The notes under the pieces were generated by a model, which was given only the letters and a program-made list of their open reading frames with translations, did no database searches and was not told the DNA's origin. Source: Candidatus Poribacteria bacterium (lineage in GTDB: Bacteria > Poribacteria > WGA-4E > PCPOR2b). From it: a DNA stretch of 44,802 nt. Positions 3,747-44,802 of the stretch are shown here, piece by piece. The position numbers were made by a program, and so were the translations under genes. The first letter of the stretch is position 1. Each line of letters begins with the position of its first letter. The DNA lies in NCBI GenBank assembly GCA_028819845.1, contig JAPPKS010000017.1, positions 139,710 through 184,511 on the forward strand, written 5' to 3'.

Positions 3747-4670
3747 CTACTTCGTCGCTTCTAGTTCCGCCCGCCGTTCCTCGACGGCTTTGCACATACG
3801 CAAATGAAAGCGTTGCGGCGGCGCCTCGTAACCCTTCCACGCATAGGGATCGATTCCCGCAACCGGTACGATACAGCGCCGATCTGCATTCGCGGGGTGT
3901 TCACCATCTCGCAAACCCCACGGAAGCAGCGACCACGCATTGCAATAGTGATTCACCAGAACGCGCCGAAAGTCGTCGCCGCGGTTCTTTCGAGAACGGT
4001 GTAACAGATAACCGTTGAAGAATACGACTGTTCCTGTCTGCACCTCGACCGGAATTTCGCCGGAATCATCGAAACCGAAACTCTCTTGGGAAAAATCGAA
4101 CTCGTCGGGGCGGTTGTGGTTCCGCTGCGGGTATAGGTAACCCGTGCGGTGCGAGCCGGGAAGCACCCACAAGCATCCGTTTTCGACGGTCGCATCATCC
4201 ATGGCAATCCATGCGCCAATCAAGGAGCGGTCGCGCGTCGGAATGTAAATCTCGTCCTGATGCCACGCCTGTCCTTGAAACCCCGCCGGTTTGACGAATA
4301 GCATCGACTGCATGCACTTCACGCTGCCGTCCCAATACGGCAGATGCGCCGCCGCAAGTTGGCTTAACGCGCCGCAAATCCTCGGATGCTTCACGTACCT
4401 CTGCATCACGGGACTAACAAAGTGCGGCTGATGGATACAAAGGATGTATTGCAACGCCTCCTCATCGCTGAGTCCAGCCGGTAAGGATTCTGAACCTTCG
4501 TTTGGATAATCGCCGCGAGCTAATTTGGCGGCATCGCGGCGCAACTCCTCGATTTCGTCAGGGCAAACCAGCTCCGGTACGGCGAGATAACCCATCTCAA
4601 CGAAGGAATTGACCATCCGCTCGGCAAGAACCTTCGGGACATCAATTTTCGATTCGAGTTCCGGCGCCAT
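3747..4670 (-). CDS. Phytanoyl-CoA dioxygenase (PhyH) family protein
   Basis: 307 aa, the full length typical of bacterial PhyH proteins. The HxD iron motif is His137-x-Asp139 (AWHQDEIYIP), with ENGCLWVLPGSH at about 163-174 and the distal His224 (LLHRSRKNR), followed by Arg residues near 235 that suit 2-oxoglutarate binding. It is the last of three tandem PhyH genes on the minus strand, 42 bases after the stop of its upstream neighbour. The three are divergent from one another, arguing for different substrates rather than dosage. Predicted soluble Fe(II)/2-oxoglutarate oxygenase; substrate unknown. Confidence 0.9.
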   Translation of the reverse strand: MAPELESKIDVPKVLAERMVNSFVEMGYLAVPELVCPDEIEELRRDAAKLARGDYPNEGSESLPAGLSDEEALQYILCIHQPHFVSPVMQRYVKHPRICGALSQLAAAHLPYWDGSVKCMQSMLFVKPAGFQGQAWHQDEIYIPTRDRSLIGAWIAMDDATVENGCLWVLPGSHRTGYLYPQRNHNRPDEFDFSQESFGFDDSGEIPVEVQTGTVVFFNGYLLHRSRKNRGDDFRRVLVNHYCNAWSLLPWGLRDGEHPANADRRCIVPVAGIDPYAWKGYEAPPQRFHLRMCKAVEERRAELEATK

Positions 4671-4712
4671 ATCGCCCCCTTTTCGTCGCGTTAGAACCCT
4701 GTGTTTACCCGG

Positions 4713-5474
4713 TCACGGCGCGCACCGTTTCCCATCCACTATCAACGGCTCCGCGTTTCCCCACAGTTTCGCGCCGTCCGCAGTAAGAATCGGCTCGGCT
4801 GAATATTGTGCCAGATATGTGCGGCGCAATCGGCTCGTCCGATTCGGCCCGCTGCGGTGAAAGTTAATACTGGTAAATACCGCAATGCTGCCTGCCGGCG
4901 CAATTACCGGAATTCCGGGATCGTCTCCGAAATACCCGATTCGGTCATTGCTGCCTTCTTCTTGAAAATGTTTTACCCACGAGCGGATGCCGATTCGAGA
5001 AAAGGGCATGATGTATGCAGTGCCGTTTTCCTCCGTCATATCGTCCAACGCACACCAGCAGGTCAAATACGGCTTGTGGTCCGGGTAGCCAACATACCCT
5101 GAATCCTGGTGCCAGCCAAACTTCATGCCGCCGTCGGCACCTTTCACGACATACTGTTCCCAGAAAAGGTATGCCGTATCCCCGAGCGTCGCACGGCAGA
5201 CTTCCGCCATCAAATCGCTGAAAAGGAATGTACGTAGCTTCGGCTGCTGTCTAAAGCAGTTGGCGACAAAATAGCGTTTGTTCCGGTGGTTGAGGCCCAG
5301 GCTGTCCGTGTTTTGCTTATCCATTTCGGCGTTCGCCTGATCAATGAACGTCTGGCATTCGCCCCGAAGCAATTCCAGAAAATGAGTCGGGATAACGCTA
5401 TTTAGAATGAAATAGCCGTCTTCCTCAAACTGCTGTTTTTGCGCATCGGTGATGTGTATGGAGGATGCCATCAC
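4713..5474 (-). CDS. Phytanoyl-CoA dioxygenase (PhyH) family protein
   Basis: 253 aa. The iron-binding motif is His122-x-Asp124 (GWHQDSGYVG), followed by CALDDMTEENGTAYIMPFS (about 141-159) and the distal His206 with a cluster of Arg residues (NFHRSGPNRTSRLRR). The fold matches the double-stranded beta-helix of PhyH oxygenases; it would use Fe(II), O2 and 2-oxoglutarate. Two Met codons open the frame; the first is kept. It is the middle of three tandem minus-strand PhyH genes, 155 bases from the gene upstream and 42 bases from the next. Substrate not determinable from sequence. Confidence 0.9.
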   Translation of the reverse strand: MMASSIHITDAQKQQFEEDGYFILNSVIPTHFLELLRGECQTFIDQANAEMDKQNTDSLGLNHRNKRYFVANCFRQQPKLRTFLFSDLMAEVCRATLGDTAYLFWEQYVVKGADGGMKFGWHQDSGYVGYPDHKPYLTCWCALDDMTEENGTAYIMPFSRIGIRSWVKHFQEEGSNDRIGYFGDDPGIPVIAPAGSIAVFTSINFHRSGPNRTSRLRRTYLAQYSAEPILTADGAKLWGNAEPLIVDGKRCAP

Positions 5475-5629
5475 AATCTCCAGTTAATCAGAAATACTCG
5501 TACCTTGTCCATTAGCGAAGGTGTCGCATCGCGATACTGTAGAGTATACGCGGTCAAATCGTAATCGTGCCTCGGGCGCGTTGTTTCCAACTTTCCGACG
5601 ACGCAGCTACACATTGAGGCACGCTAATC

Positions 5630-6421
5630 TCAATCCAGACTCGACGTTTCGTGAGCTTCAAGCGCCGCCAACGCTTCGGGGGTGCCAATCCGCTTCAACG
5701 CGGCAGCAGCCGTAATCCGTGTTTCCGCATATTTTGCATGCAAGCTGTTTTTCAATGTCTCAATCTGTTCGGGCACCGATTCCGTATGCCTAGGTTTGAT
5801 AGCGTTAATATGGATACACCGGCGGTAGGGTCTGTCGCTCAAAGCAGAATGGTGCGTCTTATGATTCAGAAAAATAACATCCCTCGGCTCGTTCACGAGG
5901 GCAAACCGGCCCGGCACGTCCTTTGCCTCTACCCCCAACCCGCCAATATTCTCGGCAAGCGCTTCCCGGAACTCACTGAAATGGCTGCCCGGTATAACAT
6001 TGAGGCAACCATCCTCCGGACCAAGGTGATCCAAATAGATATGCGCCCGCATCGTAAAATAAGGCGGTTCGGCAACGTTGTCGTGGTGCCAGTCGGATCC
6101 GGCGGTATGGAGAATCCCCTCACTAATAGGAAGGATAAAGTCGTCGCCAAGCAAGTTTCGGAACACATCGACGAACCGTTCATCGACCAATAACGGATAA
6201 AACACGTCAGGGTTGAGGTCGAAGAATGAGATATGCGGTGGAATACTATTATTTATCTGTTGCCTCGGCTCATTCGGCTTCGGCGGCGGTGCACCGTTGC
6301 GTCCCTTTAACATGGCTTCGTCAAAAGCCTCCGACAGCGTTTCTACCTCTTCCGGCTCAAGAAAATCTTTGAATTGGATAAACCCAAATGTCCGAAAATA
6401 GTTGACCTGTTCTTCTGTCAT
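5630..6421 (-). CDS. PhyH family dioxygenase with C-terminal HEAT-like tail
   Basis: 263 aa. His112-x-Asp114 (WHHDN), GCLNVIPGSHF (138-148) and the distal His191 with Arg200-Arg201 give a complete PhyH active site. The last 40 residues (YAETRITAAAALKRIGTPEALAAL, given here as positions 231-254) read like one HEAT-type helical hairpin, unusual for this family. The gene at 23528 encodes a close paralogue with the same tail and the same motif positions, though the two genes lie 17 kb apart. It follows an Ldh_2 dehydrogenase gene by 194 bases and precedes two other PhyH genes on the same strand. Confidence 0.9.
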   Translation of the reverse strand: MTEEQVNYFRTFGFIQFKDFLEPEEVETLSEAFDEAMLKGRNGAPPPKPNEPRQQINNSIPPHISFFDLNPDVFYPLLVDERFVDVFRNLLGDDFILPISEGILHTAGSDWHHDNVAEPPYFTMRAHIYLDHLGPEDGCLNVIPGSHFSEFREALAENIGGLGVEAKDVPGRFALVNEPRDVIFLNHKTHHSALSDRPYRRCIHINAIKPRHTESVPEQIETLKNSLHAKYAETRITAAAALKRIGTPEALAALEAHETSSLD

Positions 6422-7745: not shown

Positions 7746-8575
7746 TCTATGCCATAGTAAAACAATGTTGATTCGTACGCGGCGGTAGGTTCGTCGTCCA
7801 AACCAAGTATATCACTTTCGGTTGTTTCATTCTCTTCACCCGTAGGCGGGGCATCTTGCCCCGCACATAGTAGTAGGCACACTCCGTGTGCCGTAACCTT
7901 TGCGTGAAAACGTATTACCTCCAACTCAATTTACCCATTAACAGACCGCCATAGCTGTCTAAACATTGGGGGCAAGTAAACCCTGTGGGAGCGGCTTCCA
8001 GCCGCGATAACGTATTTCGCACACGCCGTGTGCCGTAACCTTTCTACAAACGATTTCCGCCCAACATACCATGCACACACCATACGCGCCGCAATATCCA
8101 AATAACGTCCCTTCATCTTGCTCTTGTAGGTTGGGTAGAGCGGATCCATTCAAAAACCGCACACTTAAACGAATAACACTGTCAACCTAACCATGTACAA
8201 GATCCAATAGATGTAGCGAAACCCAACGATCAACCGACTGAATAGGGAGGGCGATAGTCTTAAACGGACTTCAATCTTAAAAACCGCCCTCAATCCAATC
8301 AACTTCCGAATACTTATACACTCCCTTAATCATACCCCATCATTTAATCACAGTTCAGACAGCATCGCCAATCGCAACCCCTTCCATCCTTCCTCCCTTC
8401 CAATGACCCCACCCCCGCACAGCCAATCCCCGAATAGCGAAGGCGATAGTCTTTACATGAATTTACTTTAACCTTCCCCTGTGGGAGCGGCTTCCAGCCG
8501 CGATAACGTATTTCGCACACGCCGTGTGCCGTAACCTTACATTAGGCGTAAGTAAAATCCACTATAAATACATAA
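7745..8575. repeat. Repeat-filled intergenic region (modules A, B, C, D, E)
   Basis: No convincing gene is seen. Recognisable dispersed modules are: GTAGGCGGGGCATCTTGCCC (module C) near 7850-7866, the palindrome GGCACACTCCGTGTGCC (D) near 7874-7890 with relatives near 8016 and 8514, GTGGGAGCGGCTTCCAGCCG (E) at about 7985 and 8479, a partial MITE-like unit opening GTAGGTTGGGTAGAGCGG at 8123-8228, a module B at 8229-8262 directly abutting it, and a 5'-truncated module B near 8435-8452. The same module E plus D block (about 55 bases) occurs twice, at about 7985-8042 and 8479-8538. Confidence 0.8.
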
Positions 8576-10584: not shown

Positions 10585-10705
10585 ATCCTCATGTTCTGCT
10601 GAATTTCTCGTTCAGCAAAACTCCCTTTCCTGGGGATTTATATACATTAGTGTCGAATTATGTTAAAATGAAGGATTGATTTGATTTTAGCAAAGGAAAT
10701 TGATT

Positions 10706-11573
10706 GTGAAAAATGCCCCTGGAAAACACTACAGAAATGGTATCACACTCGTCGAACTGTTTCAACTATTCCCTGATGACTCAACAGCAGAACAATGGTT
10801 TGTCAAGTGTCGGTGGCACAAGGGGATTCGATGCGCTTATTGTGATAGTGACAACGTGAACACTCACGCAAAGCACGCTACAATGCCTTATCGGTGTCGT
10901 AGCTGTGGTAAGCGGTTCTCTGCAAAGACCAATTCAGTTATGCATGCTTCCAACCTCGGATACCAGAAGTGGGTGATTGCAATCTATCTCATCAACACTA
11001 GCCTGAAAGGCGTCTCCAGTTTGAAGTTGCACCGAGACTTGGGAATTACCCAGAAGTCCGCATGGCACATGCTTCATCGCATTCGCCAAGCGTATGACTC
11101 TACCAATGATGTCTTTGCGCGGGAGGTGGAAGTTGATGAGACGCTTATCGGCGGCCGCGAAGGGAACAAATCAAGTGACGGCACGAGTCGTGGACAGAGC
11201 AGACCGTCGATCGCTTCAGAGTTTTGTGCTTAAACACACAACACCGGATACGACGGTCTACACTGACCAAGCAAGTGCCTATAGGGGATTGCCGCGCAAA
11301 CATGCGTTTGTTGCGCATTCGATTGGCGAATATGTGCGAGACAAAGTCCACACAAACGGCATCGAATCGTTCTGGGCATCGCTCAAGCGCGGCTACAAGG
11401 GTGTTTATCACAAAATGAGTGTTAAACACTTAAACCGGTACATCAGCGAGTTTCTCGGTCGCCACAATCGGCGACGGCTTGATACCCATAGCCAAATGGC
11501 AGATTGGGTTCGATGTGCCACAAACAAAGGGTACTGCAAACTACTCGAAACATGTATCGTCTCCTTAACATAA
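10706..11573 (+). pseudogene. IS1595-family (ISXO2-like) transposase, internal deletion and frameshift
   Basis: The frame opens at GTG 10706 (AAAGGA upstream). It has a zinc ribbon (CAYC ... CRSC, about residues 47-75), then IS1595-type sequence through VDETLIGGREGNK, giving the first catalytic Asp. It then runs out of frame and stops at 11233. The remainder (VTARVVDRADRRSLQ onward, with YTDQAS and HTNGIESFW carrying the second Asp and the third acidic residue) continues in another frame to 11573. The roughly 30 residues normally found between these parts, including the GRGxVGKT-like segment, are missing. The junction lies near 11160-11185. The shift is not a simple -1 slip and material is lost, so this is a pseudogene rather than programmed frameshifting. 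Confidence 0.85.
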
Positions 11574-12230: not shown

Positions 12231-12690
12231 TTTCCTGTTGTCGAAATGGTTAAATGAGACTCTTTTTGCCGAGTTCCAATCTTGTTCATATTCCATTTTG
12301 CGTGAAAACGTACTATCCCCCGCCCAAAATTACCCCTTAATAAACTGGCATAACTCTCTAAACATTGGGGGTAAGTAAAGTTGTTCCATTCCCTTCTTCC
12401 GTAGGCACCGAATCTTCCCCCCCTTTCGCTCTCTCCGTAGGCGGGGATCAAGCAACTGAATAGGGAGTGCGATAGAGTTCTTCCTTGCCCCGCATAAAAG
12501 CGTCCGCCTTTGCCAAAACGAACTTTTTCAAATCGCGGTTTCGATTCATGTCGATTGTTTCATTTCTGGTTTGCCCTTTCCCCGCTCAATCGGGTACAAT
12601 TTCAACGTTCCTTTAGCGGCGTACCCGGGTTTTGACTCGAAATCTCGGTTTCTCTCGTCCGCACGAACAACTCATGAACTCAATAGGAGA
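12231..12690. repeat. Intergenic repeats: module B nested in module C
   Basis: No gene is supported. At 12437-12493 a module C (GTAGGCGGGG ... TTGCCCCGC) is interrupted after GGGG by a module B (from GATCAA at 12446 to GATAG near 12475). Sequence near 12300-12380 (GCGTGAAAACGTA and ACATTGGGGGTAAGTAAA) also occurs at about 7905-7980, showing a second shared block. The gap from 12500 to 12690 shows only a ribosome-binding site for the next gene. Confidence 0.7.
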
Positions 12691-20615: not shown

Positions 20616-21158
20616 GATGAAACCGCTCATGTAAATATAGTGTGCAAAACAATAAGCGCAACCAAAATTCTATAAGTCTCGATTCAACCCTTGCGGCCTC
20701 CTGTCCCGCAACATCCGCCGTAGGCGGGGATCAAACGACTGAATAAGGAGTGCGATAGAGATCTTGCTTGCCCCGCGAATAGCACACTCCGTGTGCCGTA
20801 TCGTTCTGTGAACTCATCCTACACACAAGCCATTTAGGGCAACGCATACAGATACCACATGAAACGATGAAACCGTTCATGTAAATAAAGTGTGCAAAAC
20901 AATAAGAGCGACCAAAATTCTTTAATTCTCGATTCAACTGTGGGGGTAAGTACAAAGTAGTAGGCACACTCCGTGTGCCGTAACGTTCTATGAACTCGTC
21001 CTACGTCCGCCGTAGGCGGGGATCAAACGACTGAATAAGGAGTGCGATAGAGATCTTCCTTGCCCCGCAAATAGCACACTCCGTGTGCCGTATCGATCTG
21101 TGAACTCGTCCTTCGCATGAGCAATTTAGGGCAACGAATAATAATACCACATAAAACA
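20616..21158. repeat. Tandem duplication carrying nested repeat modules
   Basis: Unit 1 (20616-20865) and unit 2 (20866-21158) both open GATGAAACCGNTCATGTAAA and both end ATACCACAT(G/A)AAAC. Each contains module C interrupted by module B (20720-20776 and 21012-21068) followed by module D. Unit 2 has an additional block with its own module D at about 20961-20980 that unit 1 lacks, replaced there by unrelated sequence. Unit 2 runs up to the ribosome-binding site of the gene at 21172. Confidence 0.85.
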
Positions 21159-21171
21159 AGGAGGAACGCTG

Positions 21172-22509: not shown

Positions 22510-23050
22510 AAACACTTGCGGCGCCGCGCTGTGGGAGGGATCAACTGAGCGGATAGCGAAGGCGATAGTCTTAAATGCCTCTTCCACAGTGCAAAAACTT
22601 ATTCAATCCATTCAATCTTCATTCCCCTCCTCATTAAGGCTTGCTATTACCCACAAGTCCGCAAAGTCGGATAGTGTACGGGTTTTCTCCCTTCATTCTT
22701 GACGTAACCATGCTGTGAAGCACCTGTGGGAAGGGCTTCCTAGCCCTGATTATCGGGACAGGGATGTCCCTCCTACAGTTCACACCATACCGAAATGTAC
22801 AATCGTTCTTAGCCCCAACATAGACTGCGTCTACCTACAAAAACTTGTGAATAATAGTGAGCTTACCAAGGCGGATCAACTGACCGAATAGGGAAGGCGA
22901 TAGTCTTAAACACCTTTTCCACCTTGACTTTCCCCACCCCGCTCAAACCAACCCACGGCGGCTCCTGCCACCACGGTCAAATCCACAATCCACAAAAATT
23001 TTCAAATCACAAAATATAAGACATATCCCCGCGCTAAAACATCCCATGTT
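22510..23050. repeat. Intergenic repeats: module B inside module E, and others
   Basis: No gene. Module B copies lie at 22539-22572 and 22874-22907. The first directly follows GTGGGAGG, the opening of a module E, as though inserted there. A fuller module E palindrome pair spans about 22727-22780 (GTGGGAAGGGCTTCC and later GGGACAGGGATGTCCC). Confidence 0.7.
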
Positions 23051-23527: not shown

Positions 23528-24394
23528 TTGAATCAAGCGCTTATCAACCAGTTTCAGACGTTCGGCTATATCCATTGCAAGGCGTTTTTCTCACCGCACG
23601 AAACCCAAGTGCTTTCAGACGCCTTCGACGCGGCGATGAAAGCGGCGCGCGATGGTAAGCCGCCCCCCGAACACGGCGAACAACGGCAGCAGGTCAATTA
23701 CCTGATTGATCCGTTTGTCCCGTTCTTCGACCTCAATCCTGATGTGTTCTATCCGCTATTGACCGATCAGCGATTTGTCGACATATTCAGCCATCTACTC
23801 GGCGACGATTTCATCCTGCCCGCAAGCGAAGGCATCCTGCATACGGGTGATACCGCATGGCACCACGACAACATCGCGCCGGACGGTTACTTCACAATGA
23901 GAGCCCATATCTATCTCGATCATCTCGGAAGTGAAGACGGATGCCTTAACGTCATTCCAGGCAGCCATTTTGCCGCGTACCGCCAGGCGCTGGCGCGCGG
24001 CCGGGACGGACAAATTTTGAATGCTATCCGAGCCTTGAACATGCGTCCGGAGGACGTGCCGGGCAGGTATCCGGTTGTGAACACGCCGGGAGATGTAATC
24101 TTCATGAACCACAAGCTGTTTCACGCCGCGTTAGGCAGCAAGGGCTATCGGCGCTGCATCCACATCAACGCTACGAAAGCCGCGCACACGAACGCGGAGC
24201 CGGAATTGGTTGATGCGCTAATAACCCACCTCCACCATGAATGCGCCGAAGTGCGGATTACAACCGCTGCCGCACTGCGAAGGATTGGCACCCCCGAATC
24301 GTTGGAAGCCCTTAATGAGAACGCGCCGGACTCCTCAGACACCAGAAAAACAGCGAGTGGGCAAAAAGTCATAAAGTTGCTTCAGTCGAATTAA
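23528..24394 (+). CDS. PhyH family dioxygenase with C-terminal HEAT-like tail
   Basis: 288 aa from TTG 23528 (AAGGAA seven bases upstream). Active-site motif His112-x-Asp114 (WHHDN), GCLNVIPGSHF at 138-148, distal His199 (KLFHAALG) and Arg208-Arg209. It is a close paralogue of the protein encoded at 5630-6421: the first 150 residues align without gaps and carry the same motifs at the same positions, while an insertion near 158-170 and a longer C-terminus differ. Both end with the same helical, HEAT-like tail (CAEVRITTAAALRRIGTPES). Here it is paired with a VOC gene; the other copy is with Ldh_2 and PhyH genes. Confidence 0.9.
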   Translation: MNQALINQFQTFGYIHCKAFFSPHETQVLSDAFDAAMKAARDGKPPPEHGEQRQQVNYLIDPFVPFFDLNPDVFYPLLTDQRFVDIFSHLLGDDFILPASEGILHTGDTAWHHDNIAPDGYFTMRAHIYLDHLGSEDGCLNVIPGSHFAAYRQALARGRDGQILNAIRALNMRPEDVPGRYPVVNTPGDVIFMNHKLFHAALGSKGYRRCIHINATKAAHTNAEPELVDALITHLHHECAEVRITTAAALRRIGTPESLEALNENAPDSSDTRKTASGQKVIKLLQSN

Positions 24395-24782
24395 GAACCA
24401 GTTTGAAAATTCATTTTATACAGCGCCAGGGCACGGCAGGTGTAAAGTATCCCACTACCCTCCGTAGGCGGGGATCAAGCGACCGAAAAGAATCAACTGA
24501 ACGAATAGCGAAGACGATAGTAAATCCTGCGCGATAGAAATCTTCGTTGCCCCGCGTGTACTACTACACCGTGCCCGCGTGTACCACTACACCTTGTAGG
24601 CGGGGATCAACTGAGCGAATAGCGAAGGCGATAGTCTTCATGGTTTTTCCTAGTTCTTGTACCTTGACTTTCGCCAGCCCGCAGAGCCGCACGGCGCCGC
24701 ACTGTGGGAGGAATCAACTGAGCGAATACTGAAGACGATAGTAAATCCCGCACAATAAACGTTCCGCGGATTTCGGCATTAA
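24395..24782. repeat. Intergenic repeats with doubly nested module B
   Basis: No gene. Module C opens at 24464 (GTAGGCGGGG) and closes with CCCCGC at 24550-24555. A module B starts inside it at 24473 and is itself interrupted after GACCGAAAAG by another B-type unit (24491-24527, AATCAACTGA to TAAATCC), after which the outer copy resumes with GCGATAG. The same 37-base B-type unit occurs at 24712-24748, there inside a module E start (GTGGGAG). A further module B is at 24605-24637. No ribosome-binding site is obvious before the gene at 24783. Confidence 0.85.
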
Positions 24783-26504: not shown

Positions 26505-27234
26505 CCCTCTTAACGTTGTAAAGCATACCTGTTTTCCACTCTGCCGCCAACCCCGCCAACAGCGCCGCCGCCGCGTTGCTTTTGCACACCGAGCATCTGA
26601 GAAATTCGACTACCACCATCTGAATAACTTCTGTGAAAGCGAACTCTGCGAATTCTGTCCAATCCTCAAGTGGACGAAGACACCGCCGCCAATCCTTAAA
26701 GTTCTTGTAGGTTGGGTTAAGCGGGTAATCCCAAATCCGTTCCTATGCCAATAACCGTTCAATACACCAACCGACGCCCTTGGCTCATCACATGGAGCGT
26801 AACCCAACGCTTTTTCATTGCTCGGAAGCAGTTCGGATATACCAAACACTTTCCAATGACCAAAATACGTTGGGTTACGCAGAAGACTATAGCAGAACTA
26901 TCGCACTCCTTGTTCAGTCGCTTGATCCTTCGCTATCCGCTCAGTTGATCCTTCGCCATTCGCGCAATTGATCCCAATCTACAAAAGCTAATTTATGGCG
27001 TGAATTGAATTTTTGCGGCGCAAAATTACAGTTTTTACAGTCCATAAAAAAAGGGGGAAAAACCGCGAAATTTGTTGTGTATTCGGGGTCGAGACGGTAT
27101 ATTTATTGCCTGTTACGTTTATAGGAGTAAATCAGTTTTTTCCGAGTGACAGGAATTTGGGATTGCGGGATTTTTTTAAAGCGAAGGGTTCCGGTGGGTT
27201 TTTTCAACGTCAATGCAACCGAATTTGGTCGAAC
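26505..27234. repeat. Intergenic repeats including a partial MITE and triple-nested module B
   Basis: No supported gene. A left-end MITE copy begins TTCTTGTAGGTTGGGTTAAG at 26702 and keeps its internal ACCCAACGC...GCGTTGGGTT arms. Its right part is replaced by a reverse-strand cluster of module B (26884-26973). Read on the minus strand this gives GATCAA three times, then one complete end GCGATAGT, then a leftover TATAGTCTT, as expected for copies nested within copies. Sequence 27000-27230 is otherwise unassigned. Confidence 0.8.
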
Positions 27235-27508
27235 TTCTTGTAGGTTGGGTTGAGCGGATAATCCCAAATCCGTTCCTATGCCAATACCCGTTCCGTACAC
27301 CAACCGACGCCCCTGGCTCATCACCTTAAGCGTAACCCAACGCTTTTCGGATAACTCAAACCATTACTTTAAACGAAACATATCGAAATTAGCAAGAAGC
27401 GTTGGGTTACGCTTCGCGTTTTTTTTCAACGACATCGCAGCGGAATTTGGACGAAGTACGCGCACAGTGACGTTTTTGGGATTATCCGCTCAACCCAACC
27501 TACAAGAA
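27235..27508. mobile_element. MITE-like element with perfect 34-bp inverted ends
   Basis: Bases 27235-27268 and 27475-27508 are perfect inverted copies (outer bases TTCTTGTAGGTTGGGTTGAG). A second, inner pair of arms (GCGTAACCCAACGCTT near 27340 and AAGCGTTGGGTTACGC near 27400) lies within. The 274 bases encode nothing. No target duplication is obvious. Related partial copies lie at 8123-8228, 26702-26884, 32730-32989 and about 34830-35036. Likely a non-autonomous element of unknown transposase, or a large palindromic RNA-forming repeat. Confidence 0.75.
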
Positions 27509-32672: not shown

Positions 32673-33540
32673 TCAGAGGGCAAACGATATGGGTTCAAGA
32701 ACCTGGCGCTTACCATTGTCCCAGTATCCGTAGGTTGGGTAGAGCGACAATTCCAAATCCGTTCTTGGGAAGATAACCGCTCCGAATGCCCTGCGATTGC
32801 CTCAGCAAAATACGTGGAGCGAAACCCAACGGTTTTGAAACGTCCGGAACACCGAAAAGCGTTGCGTTACGCAGAAGACGTGTGAAGACTATCGCGGAAG
32901 CTCGAAAACCATAGGAAAACTATCGCACTCCTTGTTCAGTCGCTTGATCCTTCGCTATTCAGTCGGTTGATCGTTCTACCCAACCTACAAAAACTTCATG
33001 GCAAACGCGGGGCAAGATGCCCCGCCTACAGCGGGTGATTCGGGGGAGGATTTAACTTGGGAAGACTATCGCGCCGGCTATTCGCTCGCTTGATTGTGCT
33101 TTGTTCGGCCGTTAAAATCAACCCACATGGCGCGAGGTTGAAATTCCCTCGTTTCCGCAAATTCTTAGGGTAATCCGCCGCCCTTCACGCGGGGATGAAT
33201 TTTCACAGCGCCCTTTAGCGTTTGTGCGTTCGCATTGACTGATAATTGGTTCCTGGCTAAATTCCCCCCCATTTCGCCTCTCGATTGCGATAAAATTCTT
33301 TCCGATTCACTGCCAGTGAATGTTTTAAATCACCCCTATAAACTATGCTAAAATATTAGCATTTCAATCCCCTCAAAAGACTCACAGATCTTTTTTCTTG
33401 GTTACCTTTTGGTTACCTCACGATTTCAATGAACCCGCACCACAAGCGGGCCGGTGCTATTCAATAAAAGGTAACCACCAACCTCGGCTCGACCGGAAAT
33501 TACCCATTTTCCATTGCGTTTCTTTCCTGATTTTACGCTG

Positions 33541-33579: not shown

Positions 33580-33710
33580 AAAACCTGAATTATCGGCAGC
33601 GTTATCATTCCAATTCGCCGAACCGAATCTCCTTACCTACAAAACTTGTGAAGACTATTCAGGAAAACTATCGCACTCCTTGTTCAGCCGGTTGATCCTA
33701 CCAGAACTTG

Positions 33711-34559: not shown

Positions 34560-35435
34560 TAATGAGTAATGCGTAATGAGTAAGTGATTAATATTTGGTC
34601 AAAATAGTTATAGCAAGTGATATGCCAAAATCTTTCCCGTATTAATTTGCGCAGGTAGCTGATCGCGGTTCAATCTAACGCACTTCGCTGCGGCGGTTCG
34701 ACCCATTGTAAAATTATACCCTATATTTTGCAACAAGTTTCAATAAAAATCGCGGAAATATTCCCTTAAATGTCGGGTCGCCTATACATTGCTACATACG
34801 CTTGAAGATCCCCGCTGGGGCTCCAAGGCAACGCTCTTCGGATAATTCACACATCTACCAAAGACGTGACTCCTCGATAAAACCAAAAAGCGTTGGGTTG
34901 AGCTACAGGAAAACTATCGCACTCCTTATTCAGTCGCTTGATCGCTTTGCATTTTCTTCAACGTCATCGCAGCGGAAATTGGACGAGGTACGGACACCGA
35001 AACGGTTTTGCGATTAGTCGCTCAACCCAACCTACAAAACCTATTCAGCCCCAACGGGGCGGCAGGTGTATAGAAACGCCGAATCTCACCACTATCACGC
35101 CCCAGCGGGGCGACAGGTATATAATTTCAGGTGTTGTCGGTATGCCCAATTCTTACAGCGTTTATCGAATTGACGGCACCAAATGTCGAAACGCTCAAAA
35201 TAGTTTTTATTATAGGTTGGGTTGAACAGATAACTGCCAATGCGGGGCATGGAGATTCCTATCGCCATCGCTATTCACTCAGTTGATCCCCGCCTACGAT
35301 GGGTCTAGCGTCTGCGAGCGTAGGTTTCACCATTCGGGTCAAAAAGTGTGGTAAGGATGCGTTGAACTGTGGCAAAAATGATACCCGGCGTTAGCTGCCG
35401 TTTTCAGAACAGATAAGACTCGCTTTTCATCTCAA
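34560..35435. repeat. Intergenic repeats: partial MITE, modules B and F
   Basis: No gene. A MITE relic covers about 34830-35036 with right end CTCAACCCAACCTAC and the inner TTCAACGTCATCGCAGCGGA motif shared with 27427-27443. A reverse module B of 36 bases (34908-34943) interrupts it, immediately after GCGTTGGGTTGAGCTAC. Two module F copies (AGCCCCAACGGGGCGG near 35046, GCCCCAGCGGGGCGAC near 35100) follow. A lone MITE end (TATAGGTTGGGTTGAAC) is at 35212, and a B/C fragment at 35261-35310. Base composition from 34590 to 34800 is notably AT-rich and unassigned. Confidence 0.75.
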
Positions 35436-39614: not shown

Positions 39615-40078
39615 TCTTAGGCGGGGACGGAAAATCTTTGGCTTGGCGTGATTCGTCTTTTGATGGTTGCCAAATTTTTCACTGTGGGAGAGGCATCCTT
39701 GCCTCGATATTTAGAGATTATCGCGTCCGGGAGGACGCTCCCGCATTATTAAGCAATAAATCGTTTTAAGAAATGAATACTACGTTCGGTTGACATTCGA
39801 TGTCAACGGGACTATCAAGCGTAGTCCACAGCCCGATCGCCATTCGTAGGGGTTGGGTTTCCCAACCCGCTGTGCTCAACCATCTCTGCATGCTTGGACT
39901 TCCTGTAACCGCAAATCGTGAATGGGCAGGATGACCCGATAAACACTATCGCCCTCGCTATTCACTCGATTGATCCCCTACGGTTACGGAATACCAATCC
40001 TCCCCCTTACCAAGGGGGAGTTTGAGGGGGTTATAAATACATTTGGTTATAAGCCACTCTACGGAGCAAAATTAAAAA
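39615..40078. repeat. Repeat-filled gap between pheS and pheT
   Basis: 464 bases without a gene, unusual because pheS and pheT normally abut. It holds a module E pair (about 39684-39745), GGTTGGGTTTCCCAACCC near 39848-39865, a module B in reverse (about 39947-39974), and a palindrome CCCCCTTACCAAGGGGG (about 40005-40022), followed by GAGGGGGTT. No promoter or terminator is clear, so pheT expression likely depends on read-through or on an unseen start. Confidence 0.75.
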
Positions 40079-44355: not shown

Positions 44356-44802
44356 CAGTAATGCGAACGCGGAATGTCATGCTTCCCAAGTCGATTTCAA
44401 TGTACAAGTAAACCGCGCACCGCCTAAACACATAGTCTTGACGCCAGTCCTGCTGTATGTTATCATTTGCCATAAAACCTCGCCGCATCTCCGGTTCTCA
44501 AGCGAAGAAACCGCTCAGCCCTCAATGCCGCAACAGGATGAATAAACTCATGTACTCAACGTATGAACGCGATTCGTTTTTGTTAATTTGCCCTTAAAAA
44601 CCTGTTAGAAAATTCATCTATTTACAGCTACACCCACGTAGGCGCGGAATCTTGCCGCGTAATCGTGATGAAAAATCGTATTACAACACCTTATCATTCA
44701 ACTGCATTAGCAACACACACCATAGGCGGGACATCTTATTCCACACTCGTGATGAAAAATCGTATTGCAACACCTTATCGTTCAACTGCAGTAGCCGCAC
44801 AC
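44356..44802. repeat. Intergenic tail with a 56-bp direct repeat
   Basis: No gene is supported. Bases 44663-44718 and 44747-44802 are copies of one 56-base unit (start TCGTGATGAAAAATCGTATT, end CACAC) with a few differences. Between and before them lie degenerate module C sequences (GTAGGCGCGGAATCTTGCCG near 44639, and TAGGCGGGACATCTTATTCC near 44722). The unit reaches the window edge, so more copies may follow. Confidence 0.75.

Follow-up and report, generated by a model that had tools for sequence, protein, structure and literature searches.

A very small, probably mobile repeat of Candidatus Poribacteria found within other repeats and within its own copies

The SDR1 to SDR8 families of Nostoc and its relatives are, as Elhai and colleagues reportedly described them in 2008, very small non-coding repeats of 21–27 nt present in high copy number. 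A common predicted structure, supported by compensatory changes, is said to exist for SDR4, SDR5 and SDR6; SDR1 and SDR4 reportedly occur inside their own copies as complex nested insertions and, in the part of that account drawn on here, the families are described as confined to one cyanobacterial lineage, with other repeats as their hosts. To our knowledge their mechanism has not been solved. SDR5 inserts precisely between nucleotides 3 and 4 of GCGATCGC (HIP1; GCG / ATCGC) (PMC4390886). Larger elements also bear comparison. Bacterial MITEs (RUP, NEMIS, ERIC and similar) are 70–300 bp long (PMC3733652), and the insertion sequences IS1397, ISKpn1 and IS621 target the loops of REPs (PMC1525189).

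Is there a counterpart of the SDR families in another phylum? The DNA analysed here, the whole of which is called the window, is 44,802 nt of a Candidatus Poribacteria genome (contig C10:139710-184511 of G000, 4.6 Mb in 35 contigs and 96.6% complete). An earlier note on it had singled out a repeat, module B, as inserted in other repeats and in itself, and had known of no named family like it; the cyanobacterial SDR elements are the same kind of thing. Module B, here unit B, is in our assessment one more family of the SDR kind, its members being mobile, non-autonomous, non-coding and very small, a reading to which sequence comparison leads us to give a probability of about 0.8.

Anatomy, fold and distribution of unit B

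Alignment of all copies defines a discrete unit of 36–37 nt, ATCAA-xx-GA-yy-GARTA-zz-GA-ww-GCGATAG-ARATCCC, which is non-coding and has a core of 30 nt, GATCAA-N17-GCGATAG, followed by a tail of ~7 nt. The spacer of 22 to 26 nt formerly proposed between GATCAA and GCGATAG is to be replaced by N17 with the tail outside it, and a search for GATCAA-N18..34-GCGATAG gave no match because the true spacer is 17. The consensus of 514 copies begins with ATCAA, the preceding base being variable. No palindromic stem with GTAG or GGAG at its foot, the feature of REPs and REPINs, is present, and there are no terminal inverted repeats of 15–30 bp, the ends ATCAA... and ...ARATCCC having only few bases in common. 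A subtype starting AGCAA tends toward GCGGTAG in place of GCGATAG (L058, L079 and others), possibly a linked change at positions 2 and 26, which are not a standard pair.

The variable dinucleotides covary as pairs, x1 with w2, x2 with w1, y1 with z2 and y2 with z1. Mutual information in the 514 copies has positions 10-18, 7-21 and 6-22 as its top three pairs, with 11-17 lower on the list, and the top non-adjacent pairs are those predicted by the fold. For 50 distinct copies the covariation score of the structure is 0.784, compared with 0.310±0.038 when shuffled (0 of 500 shuffles reach 0.784) and at most 0.172 with the partners slid. At the outer pair, 6-22, G·T is found 128 times and A·C 9 times, while at 11-17 T·G is found 162 times and C·A 11 times. 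As G·T is tolerated at the outer pair and A·C is not, the written strand is the folding strand. This covariation demonstrates a hairpin predicted for the written strand, in which xx/ww and yy/zz pair and enclose the tandem GA/GA and the GARTA loop, and the keeping of that pairing on that strand argues that its single-stranded hairpin form matters to the element. Both GA dinucleotides (positions 8-9 and 19-20) are ~97% conserved, and together they may be read as tandem sheared G·A pairs. A basal AUC/GAU pairing, of positions 1-3 with 25-27, is compatible with the unit; since these positions hardly vary, it is put forward as a possibility.

Strong covariation, with highly conserved unpaired positions, would suit a conserved structured RNA or protein-binding motif that has a cellular function and does not move. 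That unit B is such a static motif is nonetheless scarcely credible, given that copies are nested in copies, that there are hundreds of them, mostly in intergenic hosts and with no consistent orientation to genes, and that presence varies between congeners while most of the phylum has none. In addition, no individual copy was seen conserved at orthologous sites across genera with shared gene context, and Rfam covariance models gave no match at unit B positions in the window between 20000 and 36000, up to E=5. All this is compatible with an added function, which the unit may have.

How widespread is it? The covariance model finds ~156 copies in G000, where the strict pattern GATCAA-N15..19-GCGATAG has 149 matches and the reversed pattern 0, which excludes chance. 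Two congeneric MAGs, G021 and G022, which are of family f2 in the same order as G000 (family f1), have more than 200 copies each. They correspond to two MAGs (contigs JAJDTR010000118.1 and JAPPIK010000056.1) of a scan of GTDB genomes in which only Candidatus Poribacteria MAGs were among the matches listed, and all carrier genomes compared are MAGs. Across 85 genomes of the phylum, large numbers are confined to G000, G021 and G022; G007 has ~20 copies, three others have 1–3 each and 78 have none. Nearly all G007 copies are on few contigs (C72, C83, C91, C116), and its close relatives have almost none; either these are mis-binned contigs from another species or there was a recent transfer. Neither viral contigs nor, by blastn, plasmids gave a match to the unit, and three Nostoc plasmids (1.9 Mb) gave none to model R1, SDR5 itself not being recovered there either. 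The orientation of copies shows no clear bias with respect to genes or GC skew.

Copies in the window, nesting and empty sites

One frequent host in the window is module C, GTAGGCGGGG...TTGCCCCGC, a REP-like hairpin whose empty form, GTAGGCGGGGCATCTTGCCCCGC, has 33 exact occurrences in the examined part of G000. Its interruption on the plus strand at 12437, 20720 and 21012 had been claimed, and units do break it there, at 12447-12475 (within module C at 12435-12494; 41.0 bits with R1), 20730-20758 (within 20718-20777; 46.8 bits) and 21022-21050 (within 21010-21069; 46.8 bits). A minus-strand copy at 35259-35287 (43.2 bits) is likewise within module C, here closed by ATGCCCCGC. Other plus-strand copies are at 8229-8257 (46.4 bits), 22540-22568 (46.0 bits, following TGTGGGAGG), 22875-22903 (45.3 bits) and 24606-24634 (46.6 bits, following GTAGGCGGG, in a host not closed by GCCCCGC). 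On the minus strand there are a diverged copy at 33066-33094 (36.0 bits) and further ones at 33668-33696 (33.9 bits), 34914-34942 (46.3 bits) and 39946-39974 (45.3 bits), the last in a host, CGTAGGGGATCAA...TGTTTATC, that has a second unit elsewhere in the genome. The window also has an ISXO2/IS1595-type transposase in two overlapping frames at 10700-11573 (PF12762, E 1.4e-25, second frame), probably a broken copy, and phytanoyl-CoA dioxygenase-like genes at 23528-24394 (PF05721 confirmed), 3747-6421 and 339-1130 (the last two by eye).

At 24464-24555, on the plus strand, module C holds a unit that in turn holds another, as had been described. The outer unit starts with ATCAAGCGACCGAA... (24474-24490) and is broken after the loop; the inner unit, with the tail TAAATCCT, occupies 24492-24528 (R1 match 24492-24520, 39.2 bits); and the remainder of the outer one, GC GCGATAG AAATCTTCG, follows at 24529-24546. 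The inner subtype recurs at 24713-24741 on the same strand (28.5 bits), adjoining its TGTGGGAGG host, in agreement with its reported presence at 24712 in a module E. For 26884-26973 on the minus strand, three starts with their leftover ends had been proposed. The three serial heads are there (26973-26898), with one full core (26898-26926), but the core is followed by one clear leftover tail, GCTATAGTCTTC (GCTATAG), not two. The two starts proposed for 32884-32972, also on the minus strand, are present as two serial heads (32971-32920), with one full core (32920-32948) and a degenerate leftover tail, CTATGGTTTTC.

Is the point of interruption constant? It had been thought always to fall just before GCGATAG. 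That holds, in that the break is just after ww, at 26.9 kb, at 32.9 kb and in most nested copies, but not at 24464, where, as in about ten other copies in G000, it lies upstream, between the loop and ww. The inner unit directly follows the outer head, mostly after ww and less often after the loop, and inner copies of either orientation mainly split unit B between ww-G and ATAG. The leftover ends expected of nesting are common in the congeners but often missing in G000. In the congeners a further tail is found in 33 of 278 units with no outer head and in 40 of the 55 with one (exactly one tail in 37), while five of the eight with two outer heads have exactly two tails; the expected outer tail is missing from ~1/4 of nested copies there and from most in G000. 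On the point that the earlier note had set against mosaic decay, outer head and outer tail were seen to rejoin into an intact unit. One host even provides a series of three stages, GTAGGAGCGATCTCC plain, with one unit, and with a second unit inside the first. Inner and outer units are of different subtype, and the way head and tail subtypes go together (CT-type heads, ATCCTG tails) gives a hint of the nesting order. Inversion of the inner copy within an outer one, at the same site, is seen in at least four cases (G022:C4 ~301143; L061 ~5279; L070 ~3460; G022:C4 ~241974, reverse strand), which rules out simple tandem duplication as a general source; the remaining nested copies are mostly direct.

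Duplication does occur. Non-coding repeat blocks of the window are directly duplicated at 1-337, 20711-21162, 26699-27347 and 44639-44802 (149, 160, 116 and 80 nt, 81–94% identical), so block duplication is also active there. Could a static repeat then have taken on the nested look through slippage, tandem duplication and mosaic decay? The block that holds 21010-21069 duplicates 20711-20870 (89%; the pair 20711/21003), the two-head block at C10:100723 of G000 is an exact tandem duplication, and a solo tail, at L161 ~14314, resembles a deletion between GTGCGAT repeats. As a general explanation, however, such a static origin is very unlikely and is contradicted by the inverted nested copies, by the difference in subtype between inner and outer units, by insertion in many unrelated hosts and by empty counterparts with a length peak at 36–37 nt. 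Duplication and decay stay as a secondary process.

A lack of empty sites had been named in advance as fatal to the notion of a tiny mobile unit with its own copies as a target. In G021 and G022 together, an empty counterpart, i.e., the same flanks (21 and 18 nt, with at most 3 mismatches each) and no unit, exists for 134 of the 533 distinct units, compared with 3–9 in control windows shifted by 60–150 nt and 16–37 with smaller shifts. Many or most of the counterparts, however, belong to repeated host families and are not single-copy orthologues, which makes independent insertions fewer than 134. With the nesting, these counterparts bear that notion out. Excised lengths cluster at 36 (73 cases) and 37 (62), and there is a second peak at 23–25, as expected for nested copies in which the inner tail stands in for the outer; it may include head-only changes.

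Filled sites had been expected to differ from empty ones by exactly one unit. One unit is indeed gained, but its 36–37 nt replace 1–4 nt of the target, most often CG, and there is no target duplication. The ATC duplication once thought possible is rejected because the ATC found at each end is part of the unit itself. Among the 134, the unit stands in place of CG 41 times, of A 25 times, of C 17 times and of AT 14 times, with CGA, CGAT, CGAC or similar making up most others. Examples, with the replaced bases between slashes, are GCCCCRGAGGGG/CG/GAAGGTG, wwG/CG/ATAG, GAATAG/CG/AAGGCGG, GTAGGAG/CGAT/CTCC and GTAGGCGGGG/CAT/CTTGCCCC.

The unit is often found in small palindromes, REP-like or other, and in copies of itself; palindromes in the flanks are in excess, 35 vs 9.3, and GTAGGAGCGATCTCC and CACTCCAGCGGAGTG are empty hairpin forms. 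One G022 host is empty, and two like hosts in G021 each carry a different unit at one and the same position. Another site, CAATCTAACAGATC...GTGCTA, has a unit in G021 (L049, ~4634) and none in G022 (L060, ~4350), the flanking collinear stretches being 91–93% identical. The host CGTAGGGGATCAACCGAGTGAATAGCGAGGGCGATAGTGTTTATC is plain in several places in G000 and on C4 is twice found with a second unit replacing CG. The congeners have a family of small palindromes, CACAATCTAACAGATTGTG, often with GCAAACTGTTAGTTTGCG before it (L038, L058, L059, L071, L095, L123, G022:C15:206216), one of which is the host at the G021/G022 filled/empty site between collinear stretches. In our view these paired sites show that what is recognised by alignment as unit B was inserted whole at many places, replacing 1–4 nt without target duplication. 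That the direction was gain, not precise loss, we infer.

Possible routes of movement

What could move so small an element? The earlier note had advised looking for a transposase or reverse transcriptase, and none that could mobilise unit B came to light, neither RVT_1 nor IS110 being common to the carriers. RVT_1 reverse transcriptase was rejected as a carrier marker, none being detected in G000 (96.6% complete) or G022, and IS110 (DEDD transposase) was rejected because it is present in G021 and G022 and there is none in G000. Y1_Tnp occurs in 20 of 21 genomes, among them all main carriers but also genomes that have no unit B. None of these three is a clear marker of carriage. At L161:12400-14850 (G000:C9 ~92400-94850) a Y1 (RAYT) transposase gene, C9:92932-93276, lies amid many GCCCCAGCGGGGCGACAGGTATATAG-type repeats. 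In several of these unit B has the same position, and in one the unit's head is deleted, leaving GTGCGATAGAATTTCTCAAG.

That RAYT gene with its unit-bearing neighbours, the Y1_Tnp genes of all main carriers and the many copies within GTAG-type hairpins would accord with a unit that is immobile alone and hitchhikes in REP elements moved by RAYT (Y1) transposases. We think this quite unlikely. The unit is in many unrelated hosts, one host type occurs with and without it, empty and filled sites differ by the unit alone, it inserts into itself and has no GTAG foot, and Y1_Tnp is equally present in genomes without it.

A route through RNA, in which a folded 36-nt RNA would be ligated or reverse-spliced into hairpin loops and then copied to DNA, is somewhat less improbable, yet still not one that we favour. 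The fold is strand-specific, with G·U-type wobbles tolerated at two outer pairs, and RNA intermediates are said to have been preferred for SDRs in the 2008 account of Elhai and colleagues. Counting against such a route are the failure to detect RVT_1 in the two genomes named and the lack of clear orientation bias relative to genes. Two other ideas were dropped, a hammerhead-like ribozyme since CU is not conserved at xx, and a CRISPR-like capture of spacers since no repeat is duplicated.

For unit B as a mobile element of the SDR kind, the folded single strand would be the form that is recognised or that transposes. An enzyme acting in trans would open the target at a CG step, drop the CG and join the unit. 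Replacement of CG without duplication would fit a staggered cut with a lost overhang, or, alternatively, cuts on either side of the CG in an exposed hairpin. Composite blocks of host and unit would then be copied on by duplication or with host REPs. With no RVT_1 or IS110 detected in G000 and Y1 (HUH, RAYT-type) present in every main carrier, our first guess among the named routes, albeit a tentative one, is a single-stranded-DNA route; mobilisation by some other nuclease or repair route has roughly an even chance. A more specific picture can be drawn, in which a hairpin-forming single strand of ~36 nt, with no dedicated transposase, is put in at the CG steps of hairpins by an enzyme of the host or a hijacked one, with deletion of the CG and a preference for its own copies, a previously undescribed mode with an origin independent of the cyanobacterial SDRs. 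Taken as a whole that picture is doubtful.

Unit B and the known kinds of element

Unit B would be among the smallest DNA elements that move, and its carriers are some uncultured marine bacteria. To the question of how elements below ~40 nt can move it adds a family that is apparently unrelated and comes from a different phylum. With copies in the hundreds, a fold supported by covariation, more than 100 empty/filled pairs and the recurrent replacement of CG, its boundaries, choice of target and candidate enzymes can be tested.

REPs and REPINs with RAYT (Y1) are also short structured repeats presumably moved in trans, and they share loci with unit B, REP-like hairpins being its hosts. Unit B, however, has no GTAG/GGAG foot and no doublet, has a tandem-GA hairpin in place of a long stem, is found outside REPs as well, and shows no clear link with Y1_Tnp. 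IS1397, ISKpn1 and IS621 are alike in choosing palindromic units as targets, but are kilobase-sized and encode a transposase, whereas unit B has 36 nt. MITEs are likewise non-autonomous, non-coding, present in many copies and presumed to be mobilised in trans; even the smallest of them are about twice as long as unit B, which has neither terminal inverted repeats of 15–30 bp nor target duplication. As to group II introns and other reverse transcriptase-based retroelements, the enzyme (RVT_1) was not detected in G000 or G022, and as to IS110 or bridge-RNA elements, the DEDD transposase is missing from G000.

Because REPs and REPINs, MITEs and insertion sequences fail in the defining features tested, unit B is filed with the SDR kind by anatomy and behaviour. 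Like the SDRs, it is below ~40 nt, non-coding, dispersed and of high copy number; like SDR4, SDR5 and SDR6 it has a structure backed by compensatory changes; like SDR1 and SDR4 it is nested within its own copies; and confinement to one lineage and hosts that are themselves repeats are common to both. The GCG^ATCGC target of SDR5 recalls the (GCG)^ATAG of unit B, a notable likeness. SDRs differ in their 21–27 nt, to be set against 36–37 nt in another phylum with REP-like hairpins and own copies as targets, and SDR5, though this is a feature of SDR5 and not of the whole kind, inserts precisely, whereas unit B replaces 1–4 nt. With that one tested difference, and with SDRs compared by description, they would be the closest known kind, and unit B suggests that very small mobile repeats are not just a cyanobacterial oddity.
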